DNA from: a virus
Length of the DNA stretch: 27,864 nucleotides
Direction: 5' to 3' (one strand)
Virus record (IMG/VR): IMGVR_UViG_3300021964_000399
Coordinates: 1 to 27,864 of that record
Shown: positions 7,174 through 27,655 of the stretch, piece by piece
Layout of the letters: every line of letters begins with the position of its first letter
How positions within the stretch are numbered: position 1 is the first letter of the stretch
The notes under the pieces: model-generated
Database searches by the model: none
Told to the model about the DNA's origin: nothing
The model's input: the letters and a program-made list of their open reading frames with translations, nothing else
Made by a program: the position numbers and the translations under genes

Positions 7174-7437
7174 ATGAAACGATTTAAAGAAACAAAAACT
7201 AAAAAGGTACAAGGTCGTGGTGATGTATATAAAATATCACTACCAGATTCATTTCCACAAAATACATCCATATTAACTACATACACACCACAAGTTGGCG
7301 AACGTTACGATAATATTGCTTTTAAATTTTATAGAGATAGTAATCTGTGGCACGTTATTGCACGTGCAAACAAAGATGTGACCGGAACTCTTTATCCTAC
7401 CCAAAACAAGGTTTTAGTAATACCAAGGATTGATTAA
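7174..7437 (+). CDS. LysM-like baseplate protein, gp53/gpX-like
   Basis: An 87-residue protein with a single LysM-like unit. After an N-terminal strand region come YTPQVGERYDNIAFKFYRDSNLWHVIARAN and the closing VLVIPRID. The W-H-V-I-A-N core and final Ile-Pro are typical of phage tail LysM proteins, such as P2 gpX and the LysM part of T4 gp53. It probably bridges hub and wedge or stabilises the baseplate, rather than binding peptidoglycan. It lies directly before the hub gene, with a TAATG overlap, as the LysM protein does in P2-type tails. Confidence 0.7.
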   Translation: MKRFKETKTKKVQGRGDVYKISLPDSFPQNTSILTTYTPQVGERYDNIAFKFYRDSNLWHVIARANKDVTGTLYPTQNKVLVIPRID

Positions 7438-10367
7438 TGGGCATTTTCAATGGTACGTTTAGACAACACATTATTGACGAATTAAATTTTAGAAAGAGTC
7501 GTGAAGCTCGTCAACAAGTATATCATCCAACTGCAAGGGTGACCGCTCTTGTTGAAGGTAATCTAAATGGCGAACAACTAAGAGGGTTCACCTTGGGTAT
7601 TCCAGATACCAACTTGGTCAAATCACTAGATCAAATGACCAACATTGATGGTAGAGGTACTGTTGTTGGAATCACGTACAATGAATCCACCCCAAGAGAA
7701 GTGAGAGTTGATAGTAAAATTAATTTGCCATCTCCCGGCGTAACTGACATAACAATCTCAACACAATCAAAAGGTGGTTTAGTATTTAAAGCCACGGTAA
7801 ATTTTAAGTTCTATGGTAAAGAACAGTATGATTTTATTTATCAAACATTTATGCGTCCCGGTAACCCCATTCTCATTGAATATGGTCACACCAGAACTGC
7901 CGAATCTGTTTCAAATTTTAACGACTTGGGGTTCTTTAAAAATTTAGACGACACAACTCCATTTGAAAATGATATTAAACAGGTTAGTAGATTACCCGCA
8001 GGACGCTCTGATGGACGAGTTGCTGGATTGGTTTCCAATTTTAAAATTAGTCTAAATGAAAATAATGAGTATGAAGGTTCAATAGATATTATTAATGCTT
8101 TGGAGTTTATATTCAATTTACCCCCAGAAGATACATTTTTATCCTATAAAGATAATGAATTTTCTGACTCAATTAAAAATAATTTTGGTTATTCCGAAGA
8201 CGAAGAATATGATCCAGAATATGATAGAATTTTTCAATTAGTTCAAGATGACATCCCAGACAATTATGCTGAGTTAAATTCTTATGCTAATCATATATTA
8301 AGTTCAACTGAGATTAAAGTAAAAACAACAGTAAGAGAAATACAACTGGATGGGTCACTAATTTTGGGTGGTGGTCAGGGCCCCGGCGAACAGGCGGCTC
8401 AGGCCGGAGCTTCCTTAGCTGGTATTGGAATAGATGAAACTATTGAGGCTTCGTTAATTTCGTTAATGAACCAAACTGATTCTAATTTTGTTTGGGTATC
8501 GTTAAATTATGTATTGGATAGATTACTTCCATACATTCTAAAACGCAGTGTGATTTATAAAGATGGTTCGTATCAAACATTGGTCGGGACTGTTGCTCAA
8601 ATAAAAGATTATTCAGAAGGAAAAGATTTTATATCAAATATAATCGGCCGTAGGGCCGCTAGAAATAGATTGAGAGAATCCTCTCAAGAAGCATTTGAAA
8701 ATTTACTACCAGATACAGATGCTCCTATTTTTTTATATGAACCCATTGGCCATTGGTCAATATTACGTTCTAATAATACAAAAAATGTTATTATAAATAA
8801 TAAAAATTTATATACTACTTACATAAAGACTAGTAGAGAAGATGATTATAAGGAAAAATTTGAAACAGAAGAATTTGATTCAAATAAATTTTTTAAAATA
8901 GAACCTTCTTGGGAATTTAAAGAACAATACGGAACCGTTTCTGAAGAAGATTTTACTAAAGTTAAAAACTCTGGAATTTTTATAAATTATCAAAAAGTTA
9001 GAAATGCTTTTATAAATTCTAAATCTATTGCGGAAGCTGTTACTAGATTATTAACTTTAATAAACAATAGTACAAATGGTGTTTTAAATTTAAAAATGAA
9101 AAATATTTCAATTGATGAGGGTGACAGTGAAATATTTAAAATTGTTATCTACGACGAAAATAAATTACCAACTCAAATTCAAGATATTTATAATTTTTTT
9201 GAAGATGATTTAACAGAAGCTATTTCATACAATTTTGATTTTTCGTTACCGTCGTCGGTTGCATCCACAGTTTTAGCCAATTCTTTTAATACTGGAGAGA
9301 AGGATGTTGTTGGTGACGCAGCTAGCAAACAATTAATAGATAACGGATACGATGGAAATATTATCAGTATGATATCCCCATCGTCAGAAGAAATAATAAG
9401 ACCTACGGAACCTAAATTAAAGTCCATTAATATTTTTCGTAGAGACAAAAGCCGTCGAAAAAATGGTGTTAACTCAGAGCCATCAAGTGAAGAAGCCGAT
9501 ACTGCAATTGAAAATTACTTTGATAAAATAGGTGAAGTTTATTCTAGTATTATAGGTTATCAAGAAATTGTTCCGCCGGGCATGAAATCTCAAATAATAC
9601 GAAGTGGGTTATTCAATACGCTACCCACCAGTGCAAAAATATCAATAAAATTAAATGGATTAGATGGATTTAGATTTGGTGATATGTTTACTGTTAGAAA
9701 TATGTTACCGTCTCCATACGATGAAAATAATATATTCATGTTAACTGGATATAAACATGATATTAGTTCTGATAATTGGATAACAACAATTGATGGCATC
9801 ATGATCGCATCAACTCCAGAGGAAAAACGACCACCACAATTATCAGAAAATGTTGGGACCGCTTTGTTGCCCGGGGTAACTCCAGACTTTGAACCTTTCC
9901 TACCTGCCGAAAAAGATTTAAGTACTTTAAGTTCTACATTAAGACAAATTGTTGAAGAAGTTAAAACTAGATTACCTACTACTGGGTTTGGTGTGGACGG
10001 TTCTCTTGGATTAGAAATGGTTGTTATATCAGCTCGTCGCAGTCCACAAGAAAATGCTAGGGCGGGTGGCTCAGAAAATTCTAGACATTTAACTGGTCAT
10101 GCTGTAGATATACAATTGTTTGAAAAAACATTATTACCGACTGCATCGTATAGAGTTTTAACAAAGCCGCAGTTTATAGGACCGTCAAACGGATATCAAA
10201 CTAGGCAAAAAACTGCATATGTCGCAGTGGCTCAAATATTTAAGCAGGTTGCTTCCGAGGCTAACCCCAGTGTTTCTTTACGGTGGGGAGCGTTAGAATC
10301 TTGGGGAGGAGATTTTTCAACTCTACAAGACCCAAACCATTTTGATATACCAACATCACTACCATAG
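7437..10367 (+). CDS. Baseplate hub protein with C-terminal M15 peptidase
   Basis: A 976-residue fusion. Residues 1 to about 810 look like a large gp27/gpD-type hub protein: beta-rich, with a GDMFTVRNMLP...GYKHDISSDNWITTIDG segment near 755-785 that is typical of tail hubs. Residues about 840-976 form a peptidase M15 domain: SRHLTGHAVD carries the S-x-H-x(2)-G-x-A-x-D pattern with H884 and D891, and H968 in DPNHFDI is the third zinc ligand, preceded by SWGGDF. Such enzymes cut peptide cross-links of peptidoglycan, so the domain should help tail penetration, as gp5 lysozyme does in T4. A Gly-rich linker (GGGQGPGEQAAQAGAS, encoded by GC-rich DNA) sits near 312-330. It stops with TAG and the next gene is in the same frame. 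Confidence 0.8.
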   Translation: MGIFNGTFRQHIIDELNFRKSREARQQVYHPTARVTALVEGNLNGEQLRGFTLGIPDTNLVKSLDQMTNIDGRGTVVGITYNESTPREVRVDSKINLPSPGVTDITISTQSKGGLVFKATVNFKFYGKEQYDFIYQTFMRPGNPILIEYGHTRTAESVSNFNDLGFFKNLDDTTPFENDIKQVSRLPAGRSDGRVAGLVSNFKISLNENNEYEGSIDIINALEFIFNLPPEDTFLSYKDNEFSDSIKNNFGYSEDEEYDPEYDRIFQLVQDDIPDNYAELNSYANHILSSTEIKVKTTVREIQLDGSLILGGGQGPGEQAAQAGASLAGIGIDETIEASLISLMNQTDSNFVWVSLNYVLDRLLPYILKRSVIYKDGSYQTLVGTVAQIKDYSEGKDFISNIIGRRAARNRLRESSQEAFENLLPDTDAPIFLYEPIGHWSILRSNNTKNVIINNKNLYTTYIKTSREDDYKEKFETEEFDSNKFFKIEPSWEFKEQYGTVSEEDFTKVKNSGIFINYQKVRNAFINSKSIAEAVTRLLTLINNSTNGVLNLKMKNISIDEGDSEIFKIVIYDENKLPTQIQDIYNFFEDDLTEAISYNFDFSLPSSVASTVLANSFNTGEKDVVGDAASKQLIDNGYDGNIISMISPSSEEIIRPTEPKLKSINIFRRDKSRRKNGVNSEPSSEEADTAIENYFDKIGEVYSSIIGYQEIVPPGMKSQIIRSGLFNTLPTSAKISIKLNGLDGFRFGDMFTVRNMLPSPYDENNIFMLTGYKHDISSDNWITTIDGIMIASTPEEKRPPQLSENVGTALLPGVTPDFEPFLPAEKDLSTLSSTLRQIVEEVKTRLPTTGFGVDGSLGLEMVVISARRSPQENARAGGSENSRHLTGHAVDIQLFEKTLLPTASYRVLTKPQFIGPSNGYQTRQKTAYVAVAQIFKQVASEANPSVSLRWGALESWGGDFSTLQDPNHFDIPTSLP

Positions 10368-10376
10368 GATATTATT

Positions 10377-10790
10377 ATGTCATTCATAGTAACGATTAAA
10401 AACACAATGCCCGTGGTCAAACAAAAAGACATAAACAGAAAGTTTATGTATCGTTATTTTGCTAGTAAAGCAAACCAACTACGTGAAACTCCTGTTAATA
10501 ATATTCAACGAGAGGGTGTTGTGTACGAAATAACTCGTAGAGATTACGAAAGATATCTTGATAATAACTTTGTAGTTACTGGTCACCTAAAGTGGCTTAT
10601 TGTGGGTAAGAAAGAAGACATGACCATAATGGTAGACACGGCAAATCCAAATTACGAAGACGGAAAAGAACCCATCACCATCCCAGGCGTCTTGACACAG
10701 AACGAAGCTAGTGTTATGTTTCTTAGTAGGAAACTTCCTCCTATAAAAAGCTATCTAAGGAAATACGATCAATTCTATGTCGGTGAGTAA
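10377..10790 (+). CDS. Unknown phage protein, 137 aa
   Basis: Not recognised. It is a soluble, basic protein. The N-terminal region (KQKDINRKFMYRYFASKANQL) is probably helical, followed by beta-rich parts (GHLKWLIVGKKEDMTIMV), and it ends with KLPPIKSYLRKYDQFYVGE. There is no signal peptide or membrane segment. It starts 9 bases after the hub gene's TAG, in the same frame, with a weak AGGA ribosome binding site. It overlaps the polymerase-like gene by one base (TAATG). The tight coupling suggests it works with one of these neighbours, perhaps the polymerase-like protein, but nothing in the sequence shows how. Confidence 0.7.
   Translation: MSFIVTIKNTMPVVKQKDINRKFMYRYFASKANQLRETPVNNIQREGVVYEITRRDYERYLDNNFVVTGHLKWLIVGKKEDMTIMVDTANPNYEDGKEPITIPGVLTQNEASVMFLSRKLPPIKSYLRKYDQFYVGE
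10692..10720 (+). promoter_or_regulatory. Possible internal promoter before the family A polymerase-like gene
   Basis: TTGACA (10692-10697), 17 bases, TATGTT (10715-10720), lying inside the 137-residue gene about 70 bases before the next ATG. The -35 is perfect and the -10 matches four of six. Because TTG ACA also encodes Leu-Thr in the host gene, a chance match is possible. Confidence 0.35.
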
Positions 10791-12028
10791 TGCTATATAC
10801 CAATGGTGAACACCTAAGAACAATCCTAACGAACGACCAAAAAAAGATTGTTCTGTATGTGTTATCAGACCACAACCAGCATTCCATTCACACCTCTCTG
10901 TCTTGTATGTACATCAAAACGCAAGACGGTGAATATTATTCCTCATTTGACCACCCAGATTATCCTACACAATCTGCAGAAGGTCTGGTCATCAACAATG
11001 CTTATACAATTGATATCAAAGAATTGTTGAATGTTGGTGTAACGGTAAACAATTGCATCGACCTACTACAGTTTCACGATATGCCAGATCGGTCAACGTT
11101 ACAACATTTCTATAAAGTAAAGCTAGGTAATGTAACAAATATCAACCGCATCATTCCAGTGTATGACCACGTTAATCATATGAAAGGTATGGTCAAGCAA
11201 CTAGGAGTCACCGCCAATACTGTACATTCTGACCGATACTATAAGATGTATCACCAGATGATGCCCTATGTATTCTCCCAATTAGAACGTCGAGGCGTAC
11301 CTGTAAACCCCGAACTATTCGCCCACCACTATGGGGAAGACAAGCAATATCTCATACGGGAGAACAGAGTATACACCTCCTATAATCTATATACAAAAAC
11401 AGGACGACCAAGCAATACTCATGGTGGAATTAACTATGCTGCACTCAATAAAACCGATGGATCTCGCCAGGCATTTGCTAGTGACAAGTTATTGGTCAAC
11501 ATTGATTTCAATAGTTATCATTTACACTTGATTTGTAACAAATTAGACATACAAATTCCCGACGATCTCCATTCTTGGCTAGGAAAACAGTATTTTGATA
11601 CCGAAAATTTAACAAGTGACCAATATGAAGAGTCCAAAAAGATAACATTCAAGAATCTATATGGTTATGAGTTAGAAGAACGAGTAAAACACATAGATTT
11701 GTTTAAGCAGGTCGAACAACTTCAAGAAACGCTGTGGATTCAGTACCAGCATTCAGGTTTTCTCTTAACCGACTACCATAATACAATTGTAGTAGACAAT
11801 CCTAGTAAAAATAAAGTTTTCAATTATTATATTCAGTCATTAGAGACAGAAACCAATGTTAGACAATTATATAATTTGATTCGTGATAATTTGACGCCAG
11901 TTTTATACACATACGACTCAATGGTGTTTGAAATTGCACGAGAAGATGCAGAAAGAACCAGAGATTTGCTGAAAGAAAGACTTTTATATCCGTACAGCGT
12001 AAATGTTGGTCATAATTTGGACTTTTGA
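10790..12028 (+). CDS. Compact, divergent family A DNA polymerase-like protein
   Basis: A 412-residue protein in which the family A (Pol I) polymerase landmarks appear in the correct order. QLERRGVPVN (164-173) matches the segment that opens the Pol I thumb, TKTGRPSNT (202-210) the TGR motif, and LVNIDFNSYHL (235-245) motif A with D239. DDLHSWLGKQYF (258-269) matches the 'DIH' helix. Motif B is SKKITFKNLYG, with K283, F287, Y291 and G292. NYYIQS (345-350) has the conserved N and Q, and YTYDSMVFEI (373-382) is motif C with D376. Both metal-binding aspartates remain, but HDE has become YDS. Only about 30 residues separate the thumb opening from TGR, so the thumb is nearly absent. The first 150 residues match no exonuclease motif that I can see. 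It may be a specialised or repair polymerase, or an inactive relative. Confidence 0.7.
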   Translation: MLYTNGEHLRTILTNDQKKIVLYVLSDHNQHSIHTSLSCMYIKTQDGEYYSSFDHPDYPTQSAEGLVINNAYTIDIKELLNVGVTVNNCIDLLQFHDMPDRSTLQHFYKVKLGNVTNINRIIPVYDHVNHMKGMVKQLGVTANTVHSDRYYKMYHQMMPYVFSQLERRGVPVNPELFAHHYGEDKQYLIRENRVYTSYNLYTKTGRPSNTHGGINYAALNKTDGSRQAFASDKLLVNIDFNSYHLHLICNKLDIQIPDDLHSWLGKQYFDTENLTSDQYEESKKITFKNLYGYELEERVKHIDLFKQVEQLQETLWIQYQHSGFLLTDYHNTIVVDNPSKNKVFNYYIQSLETETNVRQLYNLIRDNLTPVLYTYDSMVFEIAREDAERTRDLLKERLLYPYSVNVGHNLDF

Positions 12029-12071: not shown

Positions 12072-12461
12072 ATGAAAACACAATTGCTTTCAACTTTTTG
12101 TAAGTCTGATGAGTTGCACGATACTTACAAAAAAGTACTAGATAAATATGAGGTAGTATTCGAAAAAATATTTGTGCTGGAAAATGTTGAAGATATTAAC
12201 CAGTTAATTTTGACGTATAATGTGGTCAATGCTGACTTACGTGATATTTTAGAATCAACTATTTCCGTTCACAGAAAAAAACAAACAAATACTATTTATA
12301 CTATAAATGCACTTAATAAACTTATCATGGAAAAAAACAATGGTATTCTTGATAAGAAGTTTCTTGTAGATTGGTCAGAATTAGAAAACACAATCTTGGT
12401 TACGGCGTATGGAAAATTAAAAAAGATATCGACACAAATAAGTGAAATAATACATTTGTAG
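12072..12461 (+). CDS. Unknown helical protein, 129 aa
   Basis: Not recognised. It is predicted to be almost wholly alpha-helical, with heptad-like hydrophobic spacing (YKKVLDKYEVVFEKIFVLENV, then LNKLIMEKNNGILDKKFLVDWSEL). It has one Cys (C10) and no membrane segment. A UvsY-type recombination mediator of similar size was considered, because uvsY lies near baseplate genes in T4, but no convincing motif was found. Its start lies next to a hairpin that would mask the ribosome binding site. It ends with TAG, and the next gene starts in the same frame 9 bases on with GTG, so coupled translation or limited readthrough could link the two. Confidence 0.7.
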   Translation: MKTQLLSTFCKSDELHDTYKKVLDKYEVVFEKIFVLENVEDINQLILTYNVVNADLRDILESTISVHRKKQTNTIYTINALNKLIMEKNNGILDKKFLVDWSELENTILVTAYGKLKKISTQISEIIHL

Positions 12462-14215: not shown

Positions 14216-15001
14216 ATGTCACTAGACATTGCTGCACTACGTGCAAAGCTCGGATCGTTCCAAGGACAGGGAGATCGCAAATCTTCCATCTGGCGCCCTC
14301 AAGAGGGTAAGACGGTCATTCGTATCGTTCCTCTCGCTGATCGTCCTGAGAATCCTTTCTCAGAACTTTATTTTCATTACCTTGGAAACAAGACCCATCT
14401 TAGTCCTATGACTTATGGTAATCGTGATCCGATTGCTGAGTTTGCAGACAACCTTCGTGGTGATGGTAGTCGTGAGTCGTATCAACAGGCTCGTGCATTC
14501 ATGCCCAAGCTCCGTACCTACGTTCCTGTAGTGGTTCGTGGTGAGGAAGATATGGGTGTTCGTTTCTGGTCGTTCGGTAAGACTGTTTACAAGCAGCTGC
14601 TTGAGATCATCGCTGATGCAGACTACGGTGATATTACTCACCTAGAAACTGGTCGCGATATCACGATTACCTACGTTCCACAGGACAAGAGTGATACTAA
14701 CTTTGCTAAGACTTCGGTTATGGCTAAGCCAAATCAGACTCCCCTGTCGGAAGATCCACAGCTGTTGACTGATTGGTCAACAAATCAACCCGACCTTCGT
14801 TCTCTCTACACAGAGCCTACCTTCGAAGAGTTGTCCGCTTTCCTCAAGAGGTATCTTGATCCCGATGGATCTGCCGATGCCCCTGAGACTAGCGTAACTC
14901 AACAGGTCACGGCTCCCGTCGTAGAAGCACCTACTCCCCAAACAACAGCCACTCCCGTTGCTAGTGCTGTAGATGAGTTTGAATCTCTGTTCGCAGAGTA
15001 A
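14216..15001 (+). CDS. 32: Single-stranded DNA-binding protein gp32
   Basis: A 261-residue gp32-type protein. It has a basic N-terminus (IAALRAKLGSFQGQGDRKSS) for cooperative self-interaction and an OB-fold core opening with GKTVIRIVPLADRPENPFSELYFHYL. A Pro/Thr/Gln linker follows (about 220-250), then the acidic tail DEFESLFAE that recruits replication partners. It coats single-stranded DNA at the fork and in recombination. T4 gp32 has a zinc site (one His, three Cys) in the core; this protein has no cysteine at all. Codon use is visibly richer in C and G-ending codons than its neighbours, as expected for an abundant protein. It has its own promoter and a strong ribosome binding site (AGGAG, 7 bases before ATG). 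The uvsX gene follows after 3 bases. Confidence 0.9.
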   Translation: MSLDIAALRAKLGSFQGQGDRKSSIWRPQEGKTVIRIVPLADRPENPFSELYFHYLGNKTHLSPMTYGNRDPIAEFADNLRGDGSRESYQQARAFMPKLRTYVPVVVRGEEDMGVRFWSFGKTVYKQLLEIIADADYGDITHLETGRDITITYVPQDKSDTNFAKTSVMAKPNQTPLSEDPQLLTDWSTNQPDLRSLYTEPTFEELSAFLKRYLDPDGSADAPETSVTQQVTAPVVEAPTPQTTATPVASAVDEFESLFAE

Positions 15002-15004
15002 TAG

Positions 15005-16123
15005 ATGCCAATAAAGAAAAAGGTTGATACTCCAGACCGTGATGAATTAGCACAGACTATTGCTGATAGTCTTAATTCGTTAATGAAAAATGACGGTCAA
15101 GTAGCTTATTTTCTGGACGGTAATGAAGACACTCCAATTGATTTAGATGATTGGGTTTCTACTGGCGCCACCATGTTGGACCTTGCTATTAGCAATCGTC
15201 CACATGGTGGTTTGCCGGTGGGTCGGATTGTAGAGTTAACGGGACTTGAACAATCTGGTAAGAGTCTACTAGCCGCTCATGCTATAGCGAGTACACAAAA
15301 GGCTGATGGTATTGGTGTAATGATTGATACGGAATCTTCAGCGAATGAAGAATTCTGGCGTTCTATTGGTCTTGATATGTCAAAGATGGTATATGCTCAA
15401 GCAGATGCTCTTGAGGATGTATTTGATATGGTCACCGAAATCATTGAGAAGGTTAGGAAATCTCACAAGGATAAGTTGGTCACGATTGTAGTTGATTCTA
15501 TCGCTGCTGCTTCAACCAAGAAAGAAATTGAAGCAGACTTTGGTAAAGATGGATACGCTACTGATAAGGCTATTATTCTCAGTAAGGCTATGAGAAAGAT
15601 TACTGGAATGATTGCTAAACAACGTGTTCTTTTGATATTTACAAACCAACTTAGACAAAAGATGAACGCAATGCCGTTCGCTGATCCATACACAACAAGT
15701 GGTGGTAAGGCAATCGGATTCCATGCCTCTGTTCGATTACGTCTTGCTACTAAAAGTAAGATCAAGAACAGTAATGGTGATGTGATTGGTGTGACAGTAA
15801 AGGCTACGGTTCAAAAGAATCGTTGTGGTCCGCCACACAGAGTTGCTGAGTTTGATATTTACTTTGATCGTGGTATTGATGATTACGCATCGTGGTTAAA
15901 AGTAATGAAAGAAAACAAGTTGATTAAACAGGCCGGAGCTTGGTATACTTTTACCGATGGTAAGGGTGAAGAACACAAGTTTCAATCAAAAGAATTTCCA
16001 GAGTTTCTAGAAGAAGATGTGGAACGAAAGGAAATGATTTATGAAGATATCTGTGAAAAGGTTATTATGTCTTACCGTTCCACAGATAAAGAACCAATCT
16101 TTGAAGAAACCAGCGAGGAATAA
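15005..16123 (+). CDS. uvsX: UvsX recombinase
   Basis: A 372-residue RecA/Rad51-type strand-exchange ATPase. Walker A is GLEQSGKS (80-87), the Walker B strand is LVTIVVDSIAAAS (about 157-169), and LLIFTNQLRQKM (about 214-225) is the RecA-like glutamine-switch region. GGKAIGFHASVRLRL (about 238-252) belongs to the DNA-binding loop L2 side. With gp32 it drives homologous pairing and recombination-dependent replication. The C-terminal tail (FEETSEE) is acidic. It lies three bases after gp32 and shares its stop with the next start (TAATG), so it is probably transcribed from the gp32 promoter. No uvsY gene was identified in the window. Confidence 0.92.
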   Translation: MPIKKKVDTPDRDELAQTIADSLNSLMKNDGQVAYFLDGNEDTPIDLDDWVSTGATMLDLAISNRPHGGLPVGRIVELTGLEQSGKSLLAAHAIASTQKADGIGVMIDTESSANEEFWRSIGLDMSKMVYAQADALEDVFDMVTEIIEKVRKSHKDKLVTIVVDSIAAASTKKEIEADFGKDGYATDKAIILSKAMRKITGMIAKQRVLLIFTNQLRQKMNAMPFADPYTTSGGKAIGFHASVRLRLATKSKIKNSNGDVIGVTVKATVQKNRCGPPHRVAEFDIYFDRGIDDYASWLKVMKENKLIKQAGAWYTFTDGKGEEHKFQSKEFPEFLEEDVERKEMIYEDICEKVIMSYRSTDKEPIFEETSEE

Positions 16124-17166
16124 TGACTGAAGAACTGTTGAGTGCATTTAACGATATGCTTAGTGAGAAAGAAAAACAAGAAAGTCTTTCTTTAAACGAC
16201 CGCGTATTGATTATTGACGGAATGAATACCTTTATCCGTAGTTTTGCAGCAATCCCGACTATGGATGACAATGGTAATCATATTGGGGGCATAACTGGCT
16301 TCCTTCGGTCAATCGCTTTTGCTATTCGTAATGTCAATCCAACTAGAGTATATGTAATCTTTGATGGTAAAGGTGGTAGCAAACGCCGTCGTGACATATA
16401 TCCTGAGTATAAGGCCGGACGTAAACCTGTTACAAGATTGAACCGTGCCTATGACATGACAACAGCACAAGATGAACGGGATTTGATGAAACGAGAATTG
16501 GTCATATCGGCTAAGTCTTTGATGAATCTACCCATTACAACCATTACCCTTGACCATGTAGAGGCAGATGATATTATGGCTTATATCGCTACTCATACAG
16601 CAGAACAGGGTGGTGAGAGTATCATCTACTCAACAGACAAAGATTTCTTACAATTGGTCAACGATAATATTACTATCTGGCATCCAATGAAGAAGAAAAC
16701 CTATACAGCAGAGATTATTTTGGAAGAACACAGCATTCATCCTAATAATTTTCTGCTGTATAGGTCACTCATTGGTGACAACAGCGATAATATCTCAGGT
16801 ATCAAAGGTATTGGGACAAAGACCCTACTAAAACACGCACCTCAGTTTGCAGAAGAAAAAGAAGTTACTTTAGATGAATTGATGGACATAGCACAAGCAA
16901 GTAAATCAAAAGTTATGAAAAAAATTGTAGATAACAAAGATATAATTGAGAGAAATCTCTATCTGATGTCTTTGTCTTCGGTTAACATGAGCGCTAATAA
17001 TAAGATGACAGTGTTGAATCGGGTTCAAGAGGACGAAGTAATTCTTGACAAAGATAACTTGACAAATCTTCTTAAAGAGTATAACGTTCTACCAGCAATA
17101 CAAAACTATGACTTTTGGTTGCAACAAACCTTTACACCCCTGACGAGATTCAATGGTAGATCATAA
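16123..17166 (+). CDS. 5'-3' exonuclease / RNase H (FEN family)
   Basis: A 347-residue flap endonuclease-type protein. Acidic metal-binding clusters are in order: LIIDGMNTFIRSF (D32), VIFDGKGGSKRRRDIYPEYKAGR (the FEN arch region with conserved basic residues), VEADDIMAYIA, and YSTDKDFLQLV. The helix-hairpin-helix part SLIGDNSDNISGIKGIGTKT follows. It matches T4 RNase H, which removes RNA primers and short flaps from lagging-strand fragments. It is about 40 residues longer than T4 RNase H; a short Glu/Lys-rich N-terminal extension (about 1-25) accounts for much of this. It overlaps the helicase gene by 14 bases. Confidence 0.88.
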   Translation: MTEELLSAFNDMLSEKEKQESLSLNDRVLIIDGMNTFIRSFAAIPTMDDNGNHIGGITGFLRSIAFAIRNVNPTRVYVIFDGKGGSKRRRDIYPEYKAGRKPVTRLNRAYDMTTAQDERDLMKRELVISAKSLMNLPITTITLDHVEADDIMAYIATHTAEQGGESIIYSTDKDFLQLVNDNITIWHPMKKKTYTAEIILEEHSIHPNNFLLYRSLIGDNSDNISGIKGIGTKTLLKHAPQFAEEKEVTLDELMDIAQASKSKVMKKIVDNKDIIERNLYLMSLSSVNMSANNKMTVLNRVQEDEVILDKDNLTNLLKEYNVLPAIQNYDFWLQQTFTPLTRFNGRS

Positions 17167-18532
17167 CTCTAACGTAGATACAATAACCGAATTTGGACCA
17201 GCATTTCAATCAAAAGTAATCGCATCTCTAATCCGTGACGGAGCTTTCTTGTCACAGGCAAGAGATGTACTTAATCCAAACTTTTTCGAGAGTCAGGCAT
17301 CTCAGTGGATTGTTCAAAAGATTATTGATTACTTTGATGAATACCGAAAGAATCCCACAGTAGAATTTTTCCGTGCTGAATTTGGTGAGATCGCAAAGAA
17401 TGAAAGTTTAAAGGTTGAGGTATTAGATCAGCTCAAAAATAGTAAACATCATTTTAACGACACCGATTTAGAATATGTTCAGGATAAGTTTCTTGAATTC
17501 TGTAAAAACCAAACTCTAAAGAGTGCTATTCTTAGGTCCGCCGATTTACTACAGCGTGGTCAGTATGGTGAGATCAAGGTAATGATTGATTCAGCCATGA
17601 AGGCTGGAACACAAAAAGATGTTGGTCTTCGGTGGGATATTGATTTTGAAAAACGACACCTCGAAGCCGCTAGAGATACCATGCCCACGGGGTGGTCTGT
17701 TATTGATAGATATCTTGACGGTGGGCTAGGACCGGGAGAGTTGGGTGTAATTGCTGCCCCATCTGGTATCGGTAAGTCATGGGCACTAACCCATCTTGGT
17801 AAGAGTGCTTTGAAACAAGGAAAAAACGTAGTTCACTACACATATGAACTCAACGAGAACTATCAAGGTATCAGATATGACACTTCCTTCACTGGAATTG
17901 AACCCTCTGCCCTAAAACATCATCTAGAAACAGTAAAATCGACCATCGAAAAAGTAAATGGACGACTATTTATTAAGTACTTCCCAACAAGAACAGCATC
18001 ACATCATACATTATTATCTCATATTGATCAGTTGTCGATACAAGAATTCAGACCAGATTTAATAATAATTGATTACGCTGACTTGATGAGAACACCCACT
18101 CGTTCTAACGCAAGACATGAAGAGTTGGGATATATTTATGAGGAACTTCGATCCATGGCGGGCGAGCTACAAGTTCCAATTTGGACCGCGAGTCAAACTC
18201 AGCGGTCGAGTATTAACGATGAAGTAATCGAAGCCGATAAGATCGGTGAGAGCTACAACAAGGTAAAAACTGCCGACGTTCTACTCTCTATTAGCCGTAA
18301 GACTGAAGACAAAATTAATAATACTGCTCGTTTGCACATAATGAAGAACCGATTTGGTGCCGACGGAGTTACTTTGCCCGTAAAAATGGATACTGCGAAG
18401 GGTTTGATCGAAGTACACGATCCTACATCTTCGGAGGGTGGTGAGTTGCAGGAAACTATGGCTAATGGTGAAGAAAATATGAAGAAGTTTCTTGCCAATA
18501 AGTTGAAAGGTTTTCAGTCAGATGAAGATTAA
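17153..18532 (+). CDS. 41: Replicative DNA helicase gp41 (DnaB family)
   Basis: A 459-residue hexameric 5'-3' helicase. The N-terminal domain (about 1-150) is helical, as in DnaB/gp41. The RecA-like motor opens with PTGWSVIDRYLDGGLGPGELGVI, with Walker A APSGIGKS (202-209), Walker B LIIIDYADLMRTP, an IWTASQTQR sensor segment, and SISRKTEDK with LHIMKNRFG as the DnaB-type arginine-finger region. It would unwind DNA ahead of the leading-strand polymerase. No primase (gp61) or loader (gp59) gene was recognised in the window. The start overlaps the nuclease gene by 14 bases in another frame. The acidic end (FQSDED) is ordinary for this family. Confidence 0.9.
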   Translation: MVDHNSNVDTITEFGPAFQSKVIASLIRDGAFLSQARDVLNPNFFESQASQWIVQKIIDYFDEYRKNPTVEFFRAEFGEIAKNESLKVEVLDQLKNSKHHFNDTDLEYVQDKFLEFCKNQTLKSAILRSADLLQRGQYGEIKVMIDSAMKAGTQKDVGLRWDIDFEKRHLEAARDTMPTGWSVIDRYLDGGLGPGELGVIAAPSGIGKSWALTHLGKSALKQGKNVVHYTYELNENYQGIRYDTSFTGIEPSALKHHLETVKSTIEKVNGRLFIKYFPTRTASHHTLLSHIDQLSIQEFRPDLIIIDYADLMRTPTRSNARHEELGYIYEELRSMAGELQVPIWTASQTQRSSINDEVIEADKIGESYNKVKTADVLLSISRKTEDKINNTARLHIMKNRFGADGVTLPVKMDTAKGLIEVHDPTSSEGGELQETMANGEENMKKFLANKLKGFQSDED

Positions 18533-20973: not shown

Positions 20974-20975
20974 GT

Positions 20976-21152
20976 ATGACAAATTACCATGAATTTTTAC
21001 CTTGGCAAACATGGATTAGTCTGCCCGAAAATAAGGACTTGACACATGACGCTGCTTTATCTAAATTTAATGTAGAAAGAGATGCTCATTTAAGGAAACA
21101 GCTCTATTACGAAAATCAAGCAAAGATGCACAAAAACCAAAACAACAAGTAG
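20976..21152 (+). CDS. 58-aa upstream ORF in frame with gp43
   Basis: This short ORF starts 2 bases after dut, with AGGAGA 6 bases before its ATG. The peptide starts MTNYHEFLPWQTWISLPEN and continues with a charged helix (SKFNVERDAHLRKQLYYENQAK). It resembles small phage proteins of unknown role with an 'LPEN..L' pattern. It stops with TAG (21150-21152). The DNA polymerase reading frame continues directly in the same frame, without an NTG start codon for the next 76 codons. It also contains a promoter for the polymerase. It may act as a translated leader that couples or limits polymerase synthesis. Confidence 0.65.
   Translation: MTNYHEFLPWQTWISLPENKDLTHDAALSKFNVERDAHLRKQLYYENQAKMHKNQNNK
21039..21067 (+). 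promoter_or_regulatory. Internal promoter for gp43
   Basis: TTGACA (21039-21044), 17 bases, TAAATT (21062-21067), inside the 58-residue ORF and about 95 bases before the polymerase start. Spacing and both hexamers are identical to the clamp promoter at 23724-23752, which argues against chance. Transcripts from here would carry only the end of the 58-residue ORF, without its start codon. Confidence 0.5.
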
Positions 21153-21161
21153 GGTACTAGA

Positions 21162-23720
21162 ATTTATCAAAATATTTATTTAGCTGACGATCATGTCCAT
21201 ATCTGGGATGATAAGAAAGGCTATTATGTTTTCCCCGCTAAAGAATACCAGTACGCTTATCGGAAAAACCCCCGTGGTCAACACCTCTGTTTTAATGGGG
21301 AGAAATGTTCAAAGACTCGACGGTTTGTAAAATCAGACCCCGACATTTTTGAAAGCGATCTCCCGATTGAAACACGGGTATTGACCGACGTATATCTTGA
21401 CAGTGATGAACCCTCCGAAGGTCACCGACTAGTCATTTTTGATATTGAGGTTTCGATGACGCCGGAACTTCCGAACATTGAAACCGCAAATAATGAAATA
21501 ACCTCTATAGCATTGTATGACCAGATAGTAGATGAGTACCATGTGCTAGTTCTGGACAAATCTGGTGCTAAAGAAAATCATTCCAAGAATAATACTACGG
21601 TTAAATTTTATACAAACGAATTCGATCTTCTATATGATTTTCTAGATCTATGGGAGGGAATCAGTCCAACTATCATTACAGGATGGAACAGTGATAATTT
21701 CGATGTTCCGTATCTGTATCGTAGACTTCAGCACGTTCTTGGATACAATCATGCACTAAGGATGTCCTGTATTCAAAAGGTTAAATATTCAAACTACCGA
21801 ATGAAGTATCAGATGGCTGGTATTTCCAGCTTAGATTATCTTGATCTATATAAAAAGTTTACTTACAGTGAGCTTCCCAACTATCGACTTGATACTGTTG
21901 GTAGAATTGAATTGGGCATGGGTAAGATTGAATACGATGGTACTCTAGACGATCTCTTTGAGAGTGACATTGATAAGTTTATTGAATATAACTTACGAGA
22001 CGTTGAGATCATTGTAGAACTTGAAAAGAAAATGAAGCTAATCGAATTGGTCAGAGGTATCTGTCATATCGGTCACGTTCCCTATGAAGATTATGGTTAT
22101 TCATCACGTTTTCTTGAAGGAACTCTAGTAACATATCTACATCGTAAGGGTATGGTGGTCACAGATCGTGATCCAGAGGGCCGAGAATTAATGGATGCGA
22201 GAAAGGGAGAAGGTTTCACAGGAGCATACGTTAAGGCTCCTCGTCCTGCCAAGTATGATTGGTTGTTCTCCCTTGATTTACAATCTCTGTATCCTAGTAT
22301 CATTATGTCACTCAACATTTCACCAGAGACAAAGGTTGGAAGCGTTCCTAATTGGGATAATAAGAAATATGTTTCTGGTGAATTAGAACACATAACCGTA
22401 GAAACTGGAGGCGAGATTGTTAAATTAACTAACGATCAGTTTAAAAACTTTATTAAGGATAACAATCTAGCAATCAGCACCAATGGTATTCTATATCGAC
22501 AAGATAAGAAGGGTGTAATTCCAGCCATTCTAGATCAATGGTTTGGTGAACGAGTAGAATATAAAGATTTAATGAAGAAGCATTCTAATGAAGGTAATGA
22601 GGAGCTTGCAGATTATTATGATAGACGACAACACATTCAAAAGATTTTACTTAACTCACTATACGGAGTTCTTGGTCTTCCAGTTTTTAGATTTTTTGAC
22701 CTTGATAACGCTCTTGCTGTTACAGCTGTTGGTCAGGACGTAATTAAAAACTCTGAAGTATTTGTTAATAATTTATTTGAACAGATTGGTGCTGAACCAC
22801 GATCAAGTGAAGAGGTTGCAAAGCATCAGATAGCATTCAATAACTACAATGAAAAACAAGCTGCTAGTGAAAAGGATTGGTGTGTGTACATCGACACAGA
22901 TTCTCTTTACTTTTCATCTGTACCACTAGTACATAAATTCAATGGCGACATTCAAGAAAATACAATTAAACTTGCTAGATTTATTGAAGACAGACTTAAT
23001 GCTTATTATGATCATATGTCTTTGGATTATTTCAATTGTAAGGATCATAGATTATTTATCAAAGGTGAAGTAATTGCCAGTTCTGGTATCTGGATTGCCA
23101 AGAAACGATATGCAATGCTTAAGACATACGACTTAGAAAAGGATGTAGCTATCGAACCCAAGTTAGGCGTCAAGGGTCTTGATATTATCCGGTCAACCTT
23201 TCCACAGTATTTCAAAACGTACATGAGGAAATTTATTATTGATGCTTTGAAAGGAACAGACAAAGATCAGATTGATAATGACTTCATGGACTTCTACAAT
23301 GAGATGCGAGGTGCCGAACCAACTGAGGTCGCCAGAAATACAGCAGCTAAAAACATTAAAAAGTATGATGCTGGTGATGGTGGTCATAAGAAAGGTACTC
23401 CGATGCACGTGAAGTCTGCTATCAATTATAATCATCTATTGAAACAATTAAAGATTGATAAAGAATTTCCTCCCATCTCAAGTGGTGAGAAGATTAAGTA
23501 CTGTCTTTTAAAAGATAATCCATTCAAAATGGATTGCTTAGCGTTTAAAGATTATGAAGATCCCCCACAGGTTATGAAATATCTGAAAGAATATTGTGAT
23601 CATCGTAGACTATTTGACGCAGAAATGAGAAAAAAGATGAAAGACTTCTATGTTGCATTGGATTGGGGAGAACTCCCGATGGATATTAATAAGAGTGCAA
23701 CTCAATTCTTTTCCTTCTAG
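21162..23720 (+). CDS. 43: Family B DNA polymerase gp43, non-canonical start
   Basis: The replicative polymerase with proofreading. Numbering from 21162 (852 residues), the exonuclease sites are FDIEVS (about 94), TGWNSDNFDVPY (about 172) and YNLRDVE (about 275). Polymerase sites are DLQSLYPSI (motif A, about 370), KILLNSLYG (motif B, about 493), YIDTDSL (motif C, about 575) and KKRYA (about 646). The first in-frame NTG codon is TTG at 21381. However, the 73 codons before it encode a normal family B N-terminus (YQNIYLADDHVHIWDDKKGY..., FESDLPIETRV). The coding region must therefore start near 21162, where ATT lies 7 bases after AGGG. Start by AUU, or readthrough of the TAG at 21150, are the options. 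Confidence 0.88.
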   Translation: MYQNIYLADDHVHIWDDKKGYYVFPAKEYQYAYRKNPRGQHLCFNGEKCSKTRRFVKSDPDIFESDLPIETRVLTDVYLDSDEPSEGHRLVIFDIEVSMTPELPNIETANNEITSIALYDQIVDEYHVLVLDKSGAKENHSKNNTTVKFYTNEFDLLYDFLDLWEGISPTIITGWNSDNFDVPYLYRRLQHVLGYNHALRMSCIQKVKYSNYRMKYQMAGISSLDYLDLYKKFTYSELPNYRLDTVGRIELGMGKIEYDGTLDDLFESDIDKFIEYNLRDVEIIVELEKKMKLIELVRGICHIGHVPYEDYGYSSRFLEGTLVTYLHRKGMVVTDRDPEGRELMDARKGEGFTGAYVKAPRPAKYDWLFSLDLQSLYPSIIMSLNISPETKVGSVPNWDNKKYVSGELEHITVETGGEIVKLTNDQFKNFIKDNNLAISTNGILYRQDKKGVIPAILDQWFGERVEYKDLMKKHSNEGNEELADYYDRRQHIQKILLNSLYGVLGLPVFRFFDLDNALAVTAVGQDVIKNSEVFVNNLFEQIGAEPRSSEEVAKHQIAFNNYNEKQAASEKDWCVYIDTDSLYFSSVPLVHKFNGDIQENTIKLARFIEDRLNAYYDHMSLDYFNCKDHRLFIKGEVIASSGIWIAKKRYAMLKTYDLEKDVAIEPKLGVKGLDIIRSTFPQYFKTYMRKFIIDALKGTDKDQIDNDFMDFYNEMRGAEPTEVARNTAAKNIKKYDAGDGGHKKGTPMHVKSAINYNHLLKQLKIDKEFPPISSGEKIKYCLLKDNPFKMDCLAFKDYEDPPQVMKYLKEYCDHRRLFDAEMRKKMKDFYVALDWGELPMDINKSATQFFSF

Positions 23721-23786: not shown

Positions 23787-24491
23787 ATGATTGAGAAGTC
23801 CGTATTCCAACGGTATCTGGATAAGTACAATTTGGGTGGTGCTTGTGAGAGTGTATTGTTTACATCACAAGATGGTAGTCTCACAACCAAAGCCATCTCC
23901 GATGACAAAAGCGTACTAGTTGAAGTAGAGGCTCAAGGTATGGGTGTTCCTGCTGGAGAGTATGCTATCTATGAGACTGCTCGTCTCCGTTCTATTCTGA
24001 ACGTTCTTGATGAACGAGTAAACCTAGATGTAGAGAGTACATCCTTTGAATTTTCGGACAGTAATAATGTAGCTAGGTTTGTTCTTTCAGACCCAGCAAT
24101 TATTCCTGCTGTCCCTTCCTTGAAAGACCTCCCCGAATTCGATATTAGTATTGATTTGGACGAGACATTCGTGTCCACCTTTATTAAGGCTAAGTCCGCA
24201 CTCCCCGAAGTTGATACATTTACTGTTGTCTGTGAAGATGAACAGGTTTGTATTGTTCTTGGTTTCTCGTCACTCAACACCAATCGTGTTAAGATGCGCA
24301 CCGGCGTTGCTTGTCAGTCATTCAATCCGGTTAGTTTCTCTGCTTCATATTTTAAGGACATTCTTTCCGCTAACAAAGATTGTAAGAACGGTGTGTTGAA
24401 TGTATCTACCGCTGGACTTGCTGTTGCTAAGTTTTCGGTTGATAATATGTGGTCAACATACTACTTGGTTAAAATCGACACGATAGATTAA
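23787..24491 (+). CDS. 45: DNA polymerase sliding clamp gp45
   Basis: A 234-residue protein close in length to T4 gp45 (228). The fold pattern agrees: FTSQDGSLTTKAISDDKSVLVEVEA, then a mid-protein LDERVNLDVESTSFEFSD strand pair, an acidic central linker (KDLPEFDISIDLDETF) and the closing WSTYYLVKID. The protein is acidic overall, as expected of a clamp whose outer face is negative. It forms a trimeric ring that holds gp43 on DNA, and in T4 it also activates late transcription. It has its own promoter and AAGAGG ribosome binding site. It lies directly after gp43, whereas in T4 gp45 precedes gp44 and gp62. Here four other genes separate clamp from clamp loader. Confidence 0.85.
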   Translation: MIEKSVFQRYLDKYNLGGACESVLFTSQDGSLTTKAISDDKSVLVEVEAQGMGVPAGEYAIYETARLRSILNVLDERVNLDVESTSFEFSDSNNVARFVLSDPAIIPAVPSLKDLPEFDISIDLDETFVSTFIKAKSALPEVDTFTVVCEDEQVCIVLGFSSLNTNRVKMRTGVACQSFNPVSFSASYFKDILSANKDCKNGVLNVSTAGLAVAKFSVDNMWSTYYLVKIDTID

Positions 24492-24492
24492 T

Positions 24493-25668
24493 ATGTCATT
24501 TTCTGATTTCTTTGATGTTCAAGAAACTTCTTTGGATGATGCTAGCATTCGTCTACAGAATAACATGGATATGCTTAAGAGTATGCCGGTACAGGAACAA
24601 ACCCTATACAAAAAGTATAGGGAAATTACCGGCAAGTATAAAAAGAAGGTTGATATGTCTAGGGTGGTCAAGGCTAAGATTTGGACACCAACCGATATCA
24701 CTAACCGTGATCAGACAGTAGAAGAAATCAGTAATATACAGCCAAGAATTCGACACGCTGAATCTAAGGAAGACTTGCAGGATTGGTTGATGCTCAGGGT
24801 ATTTTCACATACCATGCAGTTCGATCAGAACCCAGGCAGATTCCTTAGATTCTTGGTGTATGATGATGTAACACAAAAGTATCTTGGAGCGGTGTCACTT
24901 GGTAGTGATGTAATTTCAATTTCATGTCGTGATGAATATATCGGATGGGATAAGGATGTTAAGTTGGGTGGTAAGCTCAACAACACATCCATTGGTACTT
25001 GTATCATGGCTACCCAACCATTCGGTTATAACTTTCTTGGTGGTAAGTTGGTTGCTTCAATGCTGACCACACAACTTGTTGCTGATACTTGGGAAAAGGT
25101 GTATGGTAATGTATTGGCTGGATTGACCACAACTTCGTTGTACGGTTCAGCAAGTATGTACAATAGTATCCCGTTCTGGAAGAAGTTGGGTAAGAGTAAA
25201 GGCTCAATCAGTATTAAGCCCGACGATGACATCTACGACGAGTGGCATCAGATCGTAAAGAGAGAAGAACCAGAATGGTATGAACAGGAGATCAATGGTA
25301 AACAACAAAAGTCTGGTCCGCCCACTGGTGTAAAACAAAAGACAATCTCCAAGATTTTTAAACTTGCTGGTATTAAAGAATCAAAATACAAGCATGGTTT
25401 TGAACGTGGAGTATATTTTGCACGGAGATATGAAAACGCTAGAGAATTTTTACGTGGTGAGATTACGAAAGATGAACTGGTTCCATTGACAAAATTAGAA
25501 AATGATATAGATTCAGTAGTTGATTGGTGGAAGCCAAAAGCTATTAAGCGTTACGTAAAGCTCCATGAAGAAAATAGAATCAAAGATGAAATCTTATTCT
25601 ACAATAAGATGATTGATATGTCATGGGAACAGGCTAGACAAACATATATTGGAGACGTTGGTAGATGA
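24493..25668 (+). CDS. DUF4338 / DruA-like protein
   Basis: A 391-residue protein with a core (about 116-242) that I recognise as the DUF4338 type, the family that includes Druantia DruA. It has RFLRFLVYDD, YLGAVSLGSDV, CRDEYIGWD, then FLGGKLVASMLTTQ, VYGNVLAGLTTTSLYGSASMYNSI. The GGKL and TTTS.YG.S..YN patterns are the strongest. The N-terminal 90 residues and the Lys/Glu-rich C-terminal 140 are not recognised. The function is not established; a nucleic-acid or base-modifying role for the fold is speculation. It starts one base after the clamp stop and overlaps the glycosyltransferase gene by four (ATGA). Within T4-like phages I believe similar proteins are common, so this may be a phage house protein rather than captured defence. 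Confidence 0.6.
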   Translation: MSFSDFFDVQETSLDDASIRLQNNMDMLKSMPVQEQTLYKKYREITGKYKKKVDMSRVVKAKIWTPTDITNRDQTVEEISNIQPRIRHAESKEDLQDWLMLRVFSHTMQFDQNPGRFLRFLVYDDVTQKYLGAVSLGSDVISISCRDEYIGWDKDVKLGGKLNNTSIGTCIMATQPFGYNFLGGKLVASMLTTQLVADTWEKVYGNVLAGLTTTSLYGSASMYNSIPFWKKLGKSKGSISIKPDDDIYDEWHQIVKREEPEWYEQEINGKQQKSGPPTGVKQKTISKIFKLAGIKESKYKHGFERGVYFARRYENAREFLRGEITKDELVPLTKLENDIDSVVDWWKPKAIKRYVKLHEENRIKDEILFYNKMIDMSWEQARQTYIGDVGR

Positions 25669-27002
25669 TAAACATTAATAGTATAAATAGTATATTGGAA
25701 GATGACTACGAACATGATCAATTTGATTATCAAATGCTTATCTATGGAAACTATACGTTTCAAGAAAATCTTGAAGCAGATAGTTTCGTACAAGTAATTA
25801 AACCAGTAATAGATTATTTGGATACCAGATTTAAAATTAACTATACGTTAATTACTCCGTCAACAATTCATAGTCTGAGAGGTCGGTCAAACGTAGAACA
25901 AATAATTTACGAATTGCCCACATATCCAAATACAATGAGAACTCACTTTGATGTTTTCAAGTTTCTTAATATTATAGATTGGAAGCGTAATGATTTTGAT
26001 ATAATCTATTCCCATCTTCCAGAACATACAAACTTAATAGCTAATGCTGTGTTCAATAACACAAACATAACTCCTAAGATTATTGGATACTCTCACTGGT
26101 TTGAAGTTTCAGAAAATGCAAAGTATGACAAGACCATGTTTCGTGAAAACATTTCAGGTATTCTTGAAATGGATCAGTGTGGTGTTAATAGTAACTGGCT
26201 GAAACGTAAGGTTATTAGTGAGGCAGAAAATGATTATAATCGTAATACTCTTAGAAAATTAGAAAATATTATTCAACCACATTATCTTGGTGTTGATCGT
26301 GTGACTCCGAGAGATAAAGATTCCTATCGTGATAAGACTGTGGTTTTTAATCACAGGTCTGCTGGTTATACAGGATGGAATTGGTTTGTTAAACAGATGG
26401 ATAAATTATGGGAAGCTCGCCAAGACTTTGTGGTCTATACTACTCTTACAGAAATAGATAGACCGTGGAACAAAGCTGTTGATTTCAAAGATAAAGAATC
26501 CTACATGGAATTTATGCAAACCGTTAAGTTTGGTGTGGGTGCTTTCCAAGAGTATTCTGCTTGGAGTTTATCTACTACCGATGGATTGTCTGTTGGTGTA
26601 CCGTATCTATTACCAAACAAACTTTGTTATCCAGAAATGGTTCCACACGACTATCCTTATTTTTATAGTGGTGATGTTGATTTCTTACTTAAGTTTGAAA
26701 ATATGTTAGACAACCCAATTGAGTATGACACTACAGATATTGCAAATAATATGTTGTGGGGTAATAGAGTGGATGAATGGTTTGATGGGTGGGACAATGT
26801 GTTTGATCTTAGAGCAGTTGGTCAGACAGAAACCCTAGAAGAAATTGTAAACTTTATTAAGAAGAAAAGATTCGCCACAAAAGAAGATATTATAAACCAT
26901 CTTAATTGGGGAATGAGAATTAAATGGTCAAGTTATAGAAATGCTTTACGACAACACAAAGACATTAGATTTACTAAAAAAGGATATGAATACATACTAT
27001 GA
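25665..27002 (+). CDS. GT-B glycosyltransferase with C-terminal helix-turn-helix-like domain
   Basis: A 445-residue protein with GT-B (GT4-like) features. YLGVD near 209 is followed by a FNHRSAGYTGWNWF segment, VYTTLTE, and the donor-site pattern WSLSTTDGLSVGVPYLLPN (about 301-319), the place of the usual E-x(7)-E region. The acceptor-side half contains IIYSHLPEHTNLIANAVF and GYSHWFEV. The last 50 residues (ATKEDIINHLNWGMRIKWSSYRNAL, then I.FTKKGYEYI) look like a winged helix-turn-helix, which would suit an enzyme acting on DNA. The substrate is unknown: phage DNA base, virion protein or host glycan. It overlaps both neighbours by four bases, so all three are probably made together. Confidence 0.7.
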   Translation: MININSINSILEDDYEHDQFDYQMLIYGNYTFQENLEADSFVQVIKPVIDYLDTRFKINYTLITPSTIHSLRGRSNVEQIIYELPTYPNTMRTHFDVFKFLNIIDWKRNDFDIIYSHLPEHTNLIANAVFNNTNITPKIIGYSHWFEVSENAKYDKTMFRENISGILEMDQCGVNSNWLKRKVISEAENDYNRNTLRKLENIIQPHYLGVDRVTPRDKDSYRDKTVVFNHRSAGYTGWNWFVKQMDKLWEARQDFVVYTTLTEIDRPWNKAVDFKDKESYMEFMQTVKFGVGAFQEYSAWSLSTTDGLSVGVPYLLPNKLCYPEMVPHDYPYFYSGDVDFLLKFENMLDNPIEYDTTDIANNMLWGNRVDEWFDGWDNVFDLRAVGQTETLEEIVNFIKKKRFATKEDIINHLNWGMRIKWSSYRNALRQHKDIRFTKKGYEYIL

Positions 27003-27655
27003 AATTGGCCAGAGATAATAAACTGTGGATACCTGACAATGAAGAATGGCAAAACTGGTCTTCCAATTATGAAATTAAACATTGGAACGTGGTTACCCAA
27101 CACATACATTCTACTCGTACTGCATTGGACATTGGTGCCCATGTTGGTATCTGGAGTCTCCGTATGGCTACAGTCTTTGACAGGGTATATGCCTTTGAAC
27201 CCCTTTCAAAACACATAGAATGTTACAAGAAGAATTTAAATTCTTATAACAATGTTTCTATTCACCAGACCGCACTTTCAGATAAAAATGATGTAAAGGT
27301 AATGAAGGAATTAGATTTTAATTCTGGAAGTTCTACTCTCGAATGGAAAATAAAATCAAAAAATACAAAACATAAACAGCAGTTCATTGATATAGAAACC
27401 ACCACATTGGATAGTTTCAATATTACAGATATTGATTTTATAAAAATGGATGTGGAAGGACATGAAGTAAATACTTTGCGAGGAGCAGAACAAACTCTAT
27501 TAAATAATAATCCAACTGTGTTTATTGAGGTGTTACATAAAGAACTTAAAAAACCATACACCGGATTGGATGCTCTACGAGACTTGGGATATACACAGAT
27601 AATGCACGTTGGTAGTGGAAATTATATTTTTAAAAAACATAGAGATATTGTTTAA
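26999..27655 (+). CDS. FkbM-type SAM-dependent methyltransferase
   Basis: A 218-residue class I methyltransferase. SAM-binding motif I is TALDIGAHVGIWSL (41-54), an FEP motif follows at 66-68, and the FkbM hallmark IDFIKMDVEGHEVNTLRGA lies near 145-163. FkbM-type enzymes usually O-methylate sugars or other hydroxyl groups, so methylation of the sugar added by the upstream glycosyltransferase is a sensible inference. There is no DNA-recognition domain and no DPPY-type motif of adenine or cytosine DNA methylases. It overlaps the glycosyltransferase gene by four bases (ATGA) and abuts the small lipoprotein ORF. Confidence 0.8.
   Translation: MKLARDNKLWIPDNEEWQNWSSNYEIKHWNVVTQHIHSTRTALDIGAHVGIWSLRMATVFDRVYAFEPLSKHIECYKKNLNSYNNVSIHQTALSDKNDVKVMKELDFNSGSSTLEWKIKSKNTKHKQQFIDIETTTLDSFNITDIDFIKMDVEGHEVNTLRGAEQTLLNNNPTVFIEVLHKELKKPYTGLDALRDLGYTQIMHVGSGNYIFKKHRDIV

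Follow-up and report, generated by a model that had tools for sequence, protein, structure and literature searches.

A predicted divPolA1-type mini DNA polymerase and its candidate small partner at the head of a phage replication block

Introduction

The divPolA1 DNA polymerases were described in 2024 from 14 phages, including Flavobacterium phage vB_FspM_immuto, and are characterised by a truncated thumb, replacement of all three catalytic Asp residues of the exonuclease, and a retained catalytic palm (PMC11348598). The genomes that encode them are 155–190 kb long, also specify a regular polymerase, which belongs to family A, B or C, and have replication genes downstream (PMC11348598). In the literature searched, the name divPolA1 was used only in that paper and its preprint, and no biochemistry of any divPolA1 was found. 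The IMG/VR contigs with divPolA1 number in the hundreds. The divPolA2 of barbaviruses is likewise an extra divergent PolA that lacks a proofreading domain and lies beside PolB; by its description only, it differs from the enzyme studied here in an unrelated N-terminal domain, variable gene neighbourhoods and the occasional presence of several copies (PMC11348598).

Here, a divPolA1-type gene in IMG/VR virus record IMGVR_UViG_3300021964_000399 is analysed. The record is a 27.9-kb fragment, and the window is the whole stretch of 27,864 nucleotides. An original prediction, made from the sequence before any database search, had described the gene as a miniature family A polymerase lying inside a tail gene cluster, and had implied that it was new. 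By homology, the gene belongs to the published divPolA1 group (PMC11348598) and is not new as a kind.

Results and discussion

Gene content of the window

The features recognised in the window, up to the sliding clamp gene, are as follows.

2611: gp26-like hub gene, ending about 7.4 kb before the mini polymerase
Between the hub gene and 7174: two large ORFs
7174: short ORF with matches to endolysin and baseplate-wedge profiles
7437..10367, + strand: 976-aa protein with a C-terminal M15 peptidase (PF08291, 1.3e-7; PF13539, 3.9e-6), probably a tail lysin
10377..10790, + strand: o137, 137 aa, with homologues in 92 loci
10790..12028, + strand: mini family A DNA polymerase, divPolA1-type (single ORF, 412 aa, ATG start)
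12072..12461, + strand: s129, a 129-aa alpha/beta protein with an HRKK..N..Y..NALN motif
Between s129 and the SSB gene: two further ORFs
14216..15001, + strand: gp32-like single-strand DNA-binding protein, SSB (phrog_1192, 3.4e-20)
15005..16123, + strand: UvsX-like recombinase (phrog_97, 7.8e-73)
16123..17166, + strand: stand-alone Pol I-type 5'-3' exonuclease, FEN (PF02739, 2.5e-33; PF01367, 1.5e-9)
17153..18532, + strand: DnaB/gp41-like replicative helicase (phrog_19, 2.3e-78)
Between the helicase and PolB genes: ribonucleotide reductase, then dUTPase
21162..23720, + strand: family B DNA polymerase (PolB), gp43-like replicase (phrog_262, 1.2e-179, for the ORF at 21381-23720)
23787..24491, + strand: gp45-like sliding clamp / polymerase processivity factor (phrog_223, 4.2e-9)

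The mini polymerase is therefore a second polymerase beside a gp43-like enzyme, as had been predicted. The stop codon of o137 overlaps its start codon (TAATG at 10788-10792), and the two genes are thus probably translationally coupled; o137 had no match among solved structures.

Tail genes, the mini polymerase, s129, ssb, UvsX, FEN and helicase follow one another in this order in nearly all of some 105 loci, and the arrangement persists among mini-polymerase sequences that are only 24–30% identical. Genes for an M15 peptidase and baseplate proteins lie upstream in most loci. Because this order recurs, the mini polymerase stands at the head of the replication block and is not an insertion in the tail cluster. 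The location given in the original prediction has to be corrected accordingly, since the gene closes the tail block at its 3' end and immediately precedes the replication genes, about 7.4 kb past the end of the hub gene that it was said to follow. The role separate from replication that had been suggested from this position is not supported, given the replication block found downstream in almost all loci and the invariant catalytic residues. Shared order could also reflect inherited synteny rather than common function.

A virion-associated role, or the structural re-use of the polymerase fold that had been suggested, would fit the overlap with o137, which is the last gene on the tail side, and the peptidase and baseplate genes upstream. 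However, catalytic and substrate-binding residues are invariant (see below), and in nearly every locus the replication block follows downstream, which makes this reading highly improbable. Placement at the boundary of tail and replication genes, followed by ssb, UvsX, FEN and helicase, argues for a role in replication, repair or recombination instead.

A search for T4-type late promoters (TATAAATA) was uninformative, with 5 found and 3.1 expected. The promoter and terminator scan gave no excess over shuffled sequences, and the Rfam search gave no match. The PolB frame is open from 21162 and reads IYQN where relatives have MYQN, with no ATG, GTG or TTG start that matches the homologues; the first ORF start of these types is at 21381, and the anomaly occupies 20974-21381. 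This suggests an Ile-codon start or a sequence error. Just past the clamp gene, a 391-aa ORF (24493-25668) matches the Pfam family DruA (PF14236, 1.3e-29), named for a Druantia defence protein, and an FkbM-type methyltransferase gene (26999-27655; PF05050, 4.7e-18) lies near the end of the window.

Sequence and predicted fold of the mini polymerase

The 412-aa product can be divided as follows.

Residues 1 to about 145: apparently degenerate exonuclease-like domain
Residues 148-190: start of the polymerase domain and thumb stub
Residues 197-412: palm, with fingers of reduced size
Motif A: D239; H244 occupies the E710 position
Motif B: K283/F287/Y291
Motif C: Y375-D376-S377

All three motifs, including the two Asp residues, occur in the order A, B, C, and the further elements on which the original prediction had been built, namely LERRGVPVN (165-173), TGR (204-206), DLH, G292 and N345..Q349, were all found in place.

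Assignment to family A rests on profiles and on fold. In the Pfam search, the match of PF00476 to the window protein (E 4.9e-5, 22.9 bits) is below the curated cut-off of 34.3 bits, whereas gp001 of immuto is above it (42.7 bits). The same profile matches 59 of 74 aligned family members (best 3.6e-13), and a 74-member mini-polymerase family profile matched the Klenow fragment at 1e-10. As a single sequence, the protein gave no notable PHROG or PDB match; a tblastn search matched Mycobacterium phage Pol I at about 1e-3 and gave E values of 1e-20 to 1e-40 for closer relatives. The AlphaFold model (pLDDT 93.9, pTM 0.92) is Klenow-like. The best solved structure in the Foldseek search was Klenow (E 3e-19, TM up to 0.71 over the query), and Pol I structures dominate the matches. 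In the model, the motif A strand ends at D239-F240 and the motif C hairpin turns at D376, which would indirectly support the predicted proximity of the two Asp. A PF00476 match and a Pol I-like model had been proposed as checks on the prediction, and a miniature family A polymerase is what both point to.

The family profile covers Klenow chain residues 199-233, where the polymerase domain begins (the IERNGVKID helix), and resumes at about residue 305, before TGR, so that approximately 70–90 Klenow thumb residues have no match. The thumb is thus truncated and, as predicted, nearly gone. An alpha/beta region makes up the N-terminal ~145 residues, and most of the Klenow chain is spanned by the fold match. 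No match to the PF01612 exonuclease was found in the mini polymerase by the Pfam search, in agreement with the predicted lack of visible exonuclease motifs. This is consistent with a dead exonuclease, the catalytic exonuclease positions being judged by eye only.

Taken together, the protein is predicted to be a reduced, nearly thumbless Klenow-type family A polymerase. It shares with E. coli Klenow, its best match by profile and by fold, the palm motifs and the domain order from exonuclease-like to polymerase, and differs in the almost absent thumb, shorter fingers, apparently degenerate exonuclease, replacement of E710 by His, H881 by Tyr and E883 by Ser, and loss of R754. The 5'-3' exonuclease, which is fused to the polymerase in E. 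coli Pol I, is encoded by a separate gene in this phage.

Relatives and comparison with divPolA1

Full relatives in the phage collection are confined to six records, which are four of immuto, Microcystis phage Mel-JY01 and the 484-kb uncultured phage LR756508; no phage nearly identical to the window was found in this collection. In IMG/VR, at least 581 mini-polymerase contigs were confirmed among the 600 pattern matches listed. When 84,980 species genomes of bacteria and archaea were scanned, only six loci emerged, all in MAG contigs, which are presumably phage contigs.

The protein of immuto that corresponds to the window protein is gp001, annotated as 'DNA polymerase family A' (tblastn 6e-30, 82% of the query), and one alignment with it shows 26 invariant columns. 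The two are homologous over most of their length, similar in size (412 and 441 aa), truncated in the thumb and intact in the palm, with an exonuclease that appears degenerate in the window protein as well; in both phages the replication genes follow directly downstream in the same order, and a regular polymerase coexists. The differences are an identity of about 26–27% and the type of replicase, which is PolB here and a long PolA in immuto. Thus, the divPolA1 traits found in the window are homology, the catalytic palm, the truncated thumb, downstream replication genes and a second, regular polymerase. The text of PMC11348598 makes no mention of the invariant H244, Y375 and S/A377, of the loss of R754 or of the linkage with s129. 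What is new here is the invariant altered active site, the small candidate partner gene that is almost always present, and the position leading the replication genes.

Small size and a missing thumb would also be expected if a full-length phage Pol I had been copied and the copy were in decay or had lately been truncated. However, all 98 full-length relatives have 400–462 aa, so that the size of 412 aa is a family trait, and dN/dS is about 0.1–0.24 in the pairs compared, which indicates that the protein is under selection. Decay is refuted by this family-wide conservation and is left with next to no likelihood. Derivation by truncation from the phage's own Pol I was rejected as well, as a BLASTP comparison of the long PolA of immuto with the mini enzyme gave nothing significant.

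Active-site residues

The residue alignment included 100 full or nearly full sequences, which were reduced to 77 at 90% identity. The E. coli equivalents given in parentheses were taken from the HMMER alignment of the family profile to Klenow, and the residue numbers (D705, E710, K758, D882 etc.) follow the customary numbering of E. coli Pol I. Invariant in all 77 sequences are R206 (R668), D239 (D705), H244 (E710), K283 (K758), F287 (F762), Y291 (Y766), Q349 (Q849), E352, Y375 (H881) and D376 (D882). Both catalytic Asp residues are thus kept throughout, as the original prediction had stated for the window protein.

The usual Glu steric gate of motif A and the HDE of motif C, which are usual but not obligatory features of PF00476 enzymes, are absent from 77/77, with His at the gate and YD(S/A) in motif C. 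The predicted change of HDE to YDS was confirmed for the window protein, and S377, at the position of E883, is Ser or Ala across the family. The position of R754 is occupied by Tyr, Ile, Val, Met or Leu in 71 sequences and by Arg in 6. The polymerase of Thermus phage Tt72 resembles the mini polymerase in the missing E883 carboxylate and in a Ser (S616) after the motif C Asp, with which it is active; it differs as a full enzyme with strong proofreading and a retained Glu steric gate, E389 (PMC9324360). Hence, the motif C change is no argument against activity. In Pol I, E710 is the rNTP gate and is highly conserved among PolA enzymes (PMC9324360). The invariant His at this position is a real peculiarity, and the combination of E710 to His, loss of R754 and YD(S/A) is unusual and could point to a changed use of substrates or to low activity.

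If His in place of the gate Glu, which blocks rNTPs in Pol I (PMC9324360), admits them, the protein would be a ribonucleotide-using enzyme that makes a primer, RNA or a mixed polymer; its presence in 77/77 sequences is in favour of this. Bulky His may nevertheless still exclude the 2'-OH, most of the fold matches are Pol I structures, and primer synthesis is covered by a separate primase in most large records (see below). Use of ribonucleotides as the main role is thus judged quite improbable.

Accompanying replicases and proposed role

PolB is encoded in 13 of the 31 mini-polymerase records, and a PolA of about 770 aa in three others; the two never occur together, and most of the remaining records are fragments. 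In each of the eight records of at least 148 kb, a single divPolA1 match is accompanied by a separate replicase, either PolB or the long PolA, and six of them have a DnaG-like primase. The mini polymerase is therefore not the replicase and is not needed as a primase; the former role was rejected, as was that of a replacement primase as the main idea. A quick tree without support values, constructed to see whether replicase type tracks the mini-polymerase tree, did not group the PolA-linked mini polymerases in one clade. The mini polymerase is retained when the replicase type changes. In one locus (L110:13216-15304, - strand), PolB is contained in two ORFs, the second of which starts with a stretch ending in '..ADDILVHNS' that resembles an intein C-terminus.

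The mini polymerase is probably an accessory gap-filling or recombination polymerase that acts beside the phage replicase. As the block also encodes a separate Pol I-type 5'-3' exonuclease, the role would most simply be read as that of a 'split Pol I', in which divPolA1 is the polymerase half and the exonuclease the other half; this step is inferred. The polymerase would fill gaps and extend recombination and Okazaki intermediates on SSB-coated DNA, including those of UvsX-dependent recombination. Synthesis would probably be distributive and of low fidelity, and the enzyme may be kept on DNA by a partner such as s129. Against a split Pol I, the T4-type FEN (RNase H) normally acts without a Pol I partner.

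The UvsX and SSB genes downstream, the apparently degenerate exonuclease, the reduced thumb and fingers and the altered sugar gate would also suit a permissive translesion or damage-tolerance polymerase acting beside UvsX and SSB at stalled forks, for which the bacterial PolA2/APEX group of exonuclease-dead accessory family A enzymes provides a precedent (PMC12926913). Damage-tolerance genes are, however, often dispensable and scattered, whereas the mini polymerase has a constant place among the core replication genes of its lineage; this alternative is therefore considered unlikely.

s129, a candidate partner

By tblastn against the phage collection, s129 was found in exactly the six phage records that have the mini polymerase and in no others. 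It is the better conserved of the two, with 36–45% full-length identity to the window in the three reference lineages as compared with 24–28% for the mini polymerase. A search with s129 only revealed 77 new IMG/VR loci, 48 of which include the mini polymerase; 20 of the remainder have less than 1.7 kb upstream, and in 9 the 1.9–2.4 kb upstream is occupied by one other ORF. Conversely, only two mini-polymerase loci without s129 (L100 and L110) are long enough downstream to have held it. Thus, s129 accompanies divPolA1 in almost every locus with room.

The model of s129 is confident (pLDDT 95.5). No significant match to it was found in Pfam, PHROG, PDB-profile or fold searches, and the protein is therefore left unnamed. 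Its linkage makes s129 a candidate partner of divPolA1, a physical partnership being hypothetical because shared inheritance in one lineage could yield part of the pattern. A two-part polymerase, in which s129 (or SSB) replaces the grip of the thumb and the His gate leads to a choice of substrates that no studied Pol I shows, such as tolerance of ribonucleotides or modified dNTPs, is conceivable and distinctly unlikely. The strict change at the residue that separates dNTPs from rNTPs, and a small protein confined to the same phage records, make the retention of a second, thumbless polymerase accessible to direct tests in cultured phages, Flavobacterium phage immuto among them.

The interval between the mini polymerase and s129 includes, in many relatives, a gene for a protein of about 340–1400 aa with a conserved N-terminal 'EW.YR...G' motif and little or no family match (examples are L043:10911-12200, L071:11266-12489, L090:5757-9935 and L095:11227-13332). 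In one clade, a DNA/RNA non-specific endonuclease gene lies directly downstream of the mini polymerase (L086:11240-11839, PF01223, 1.1e-20; L052:11226-11837, phrog_14168 nuclease).
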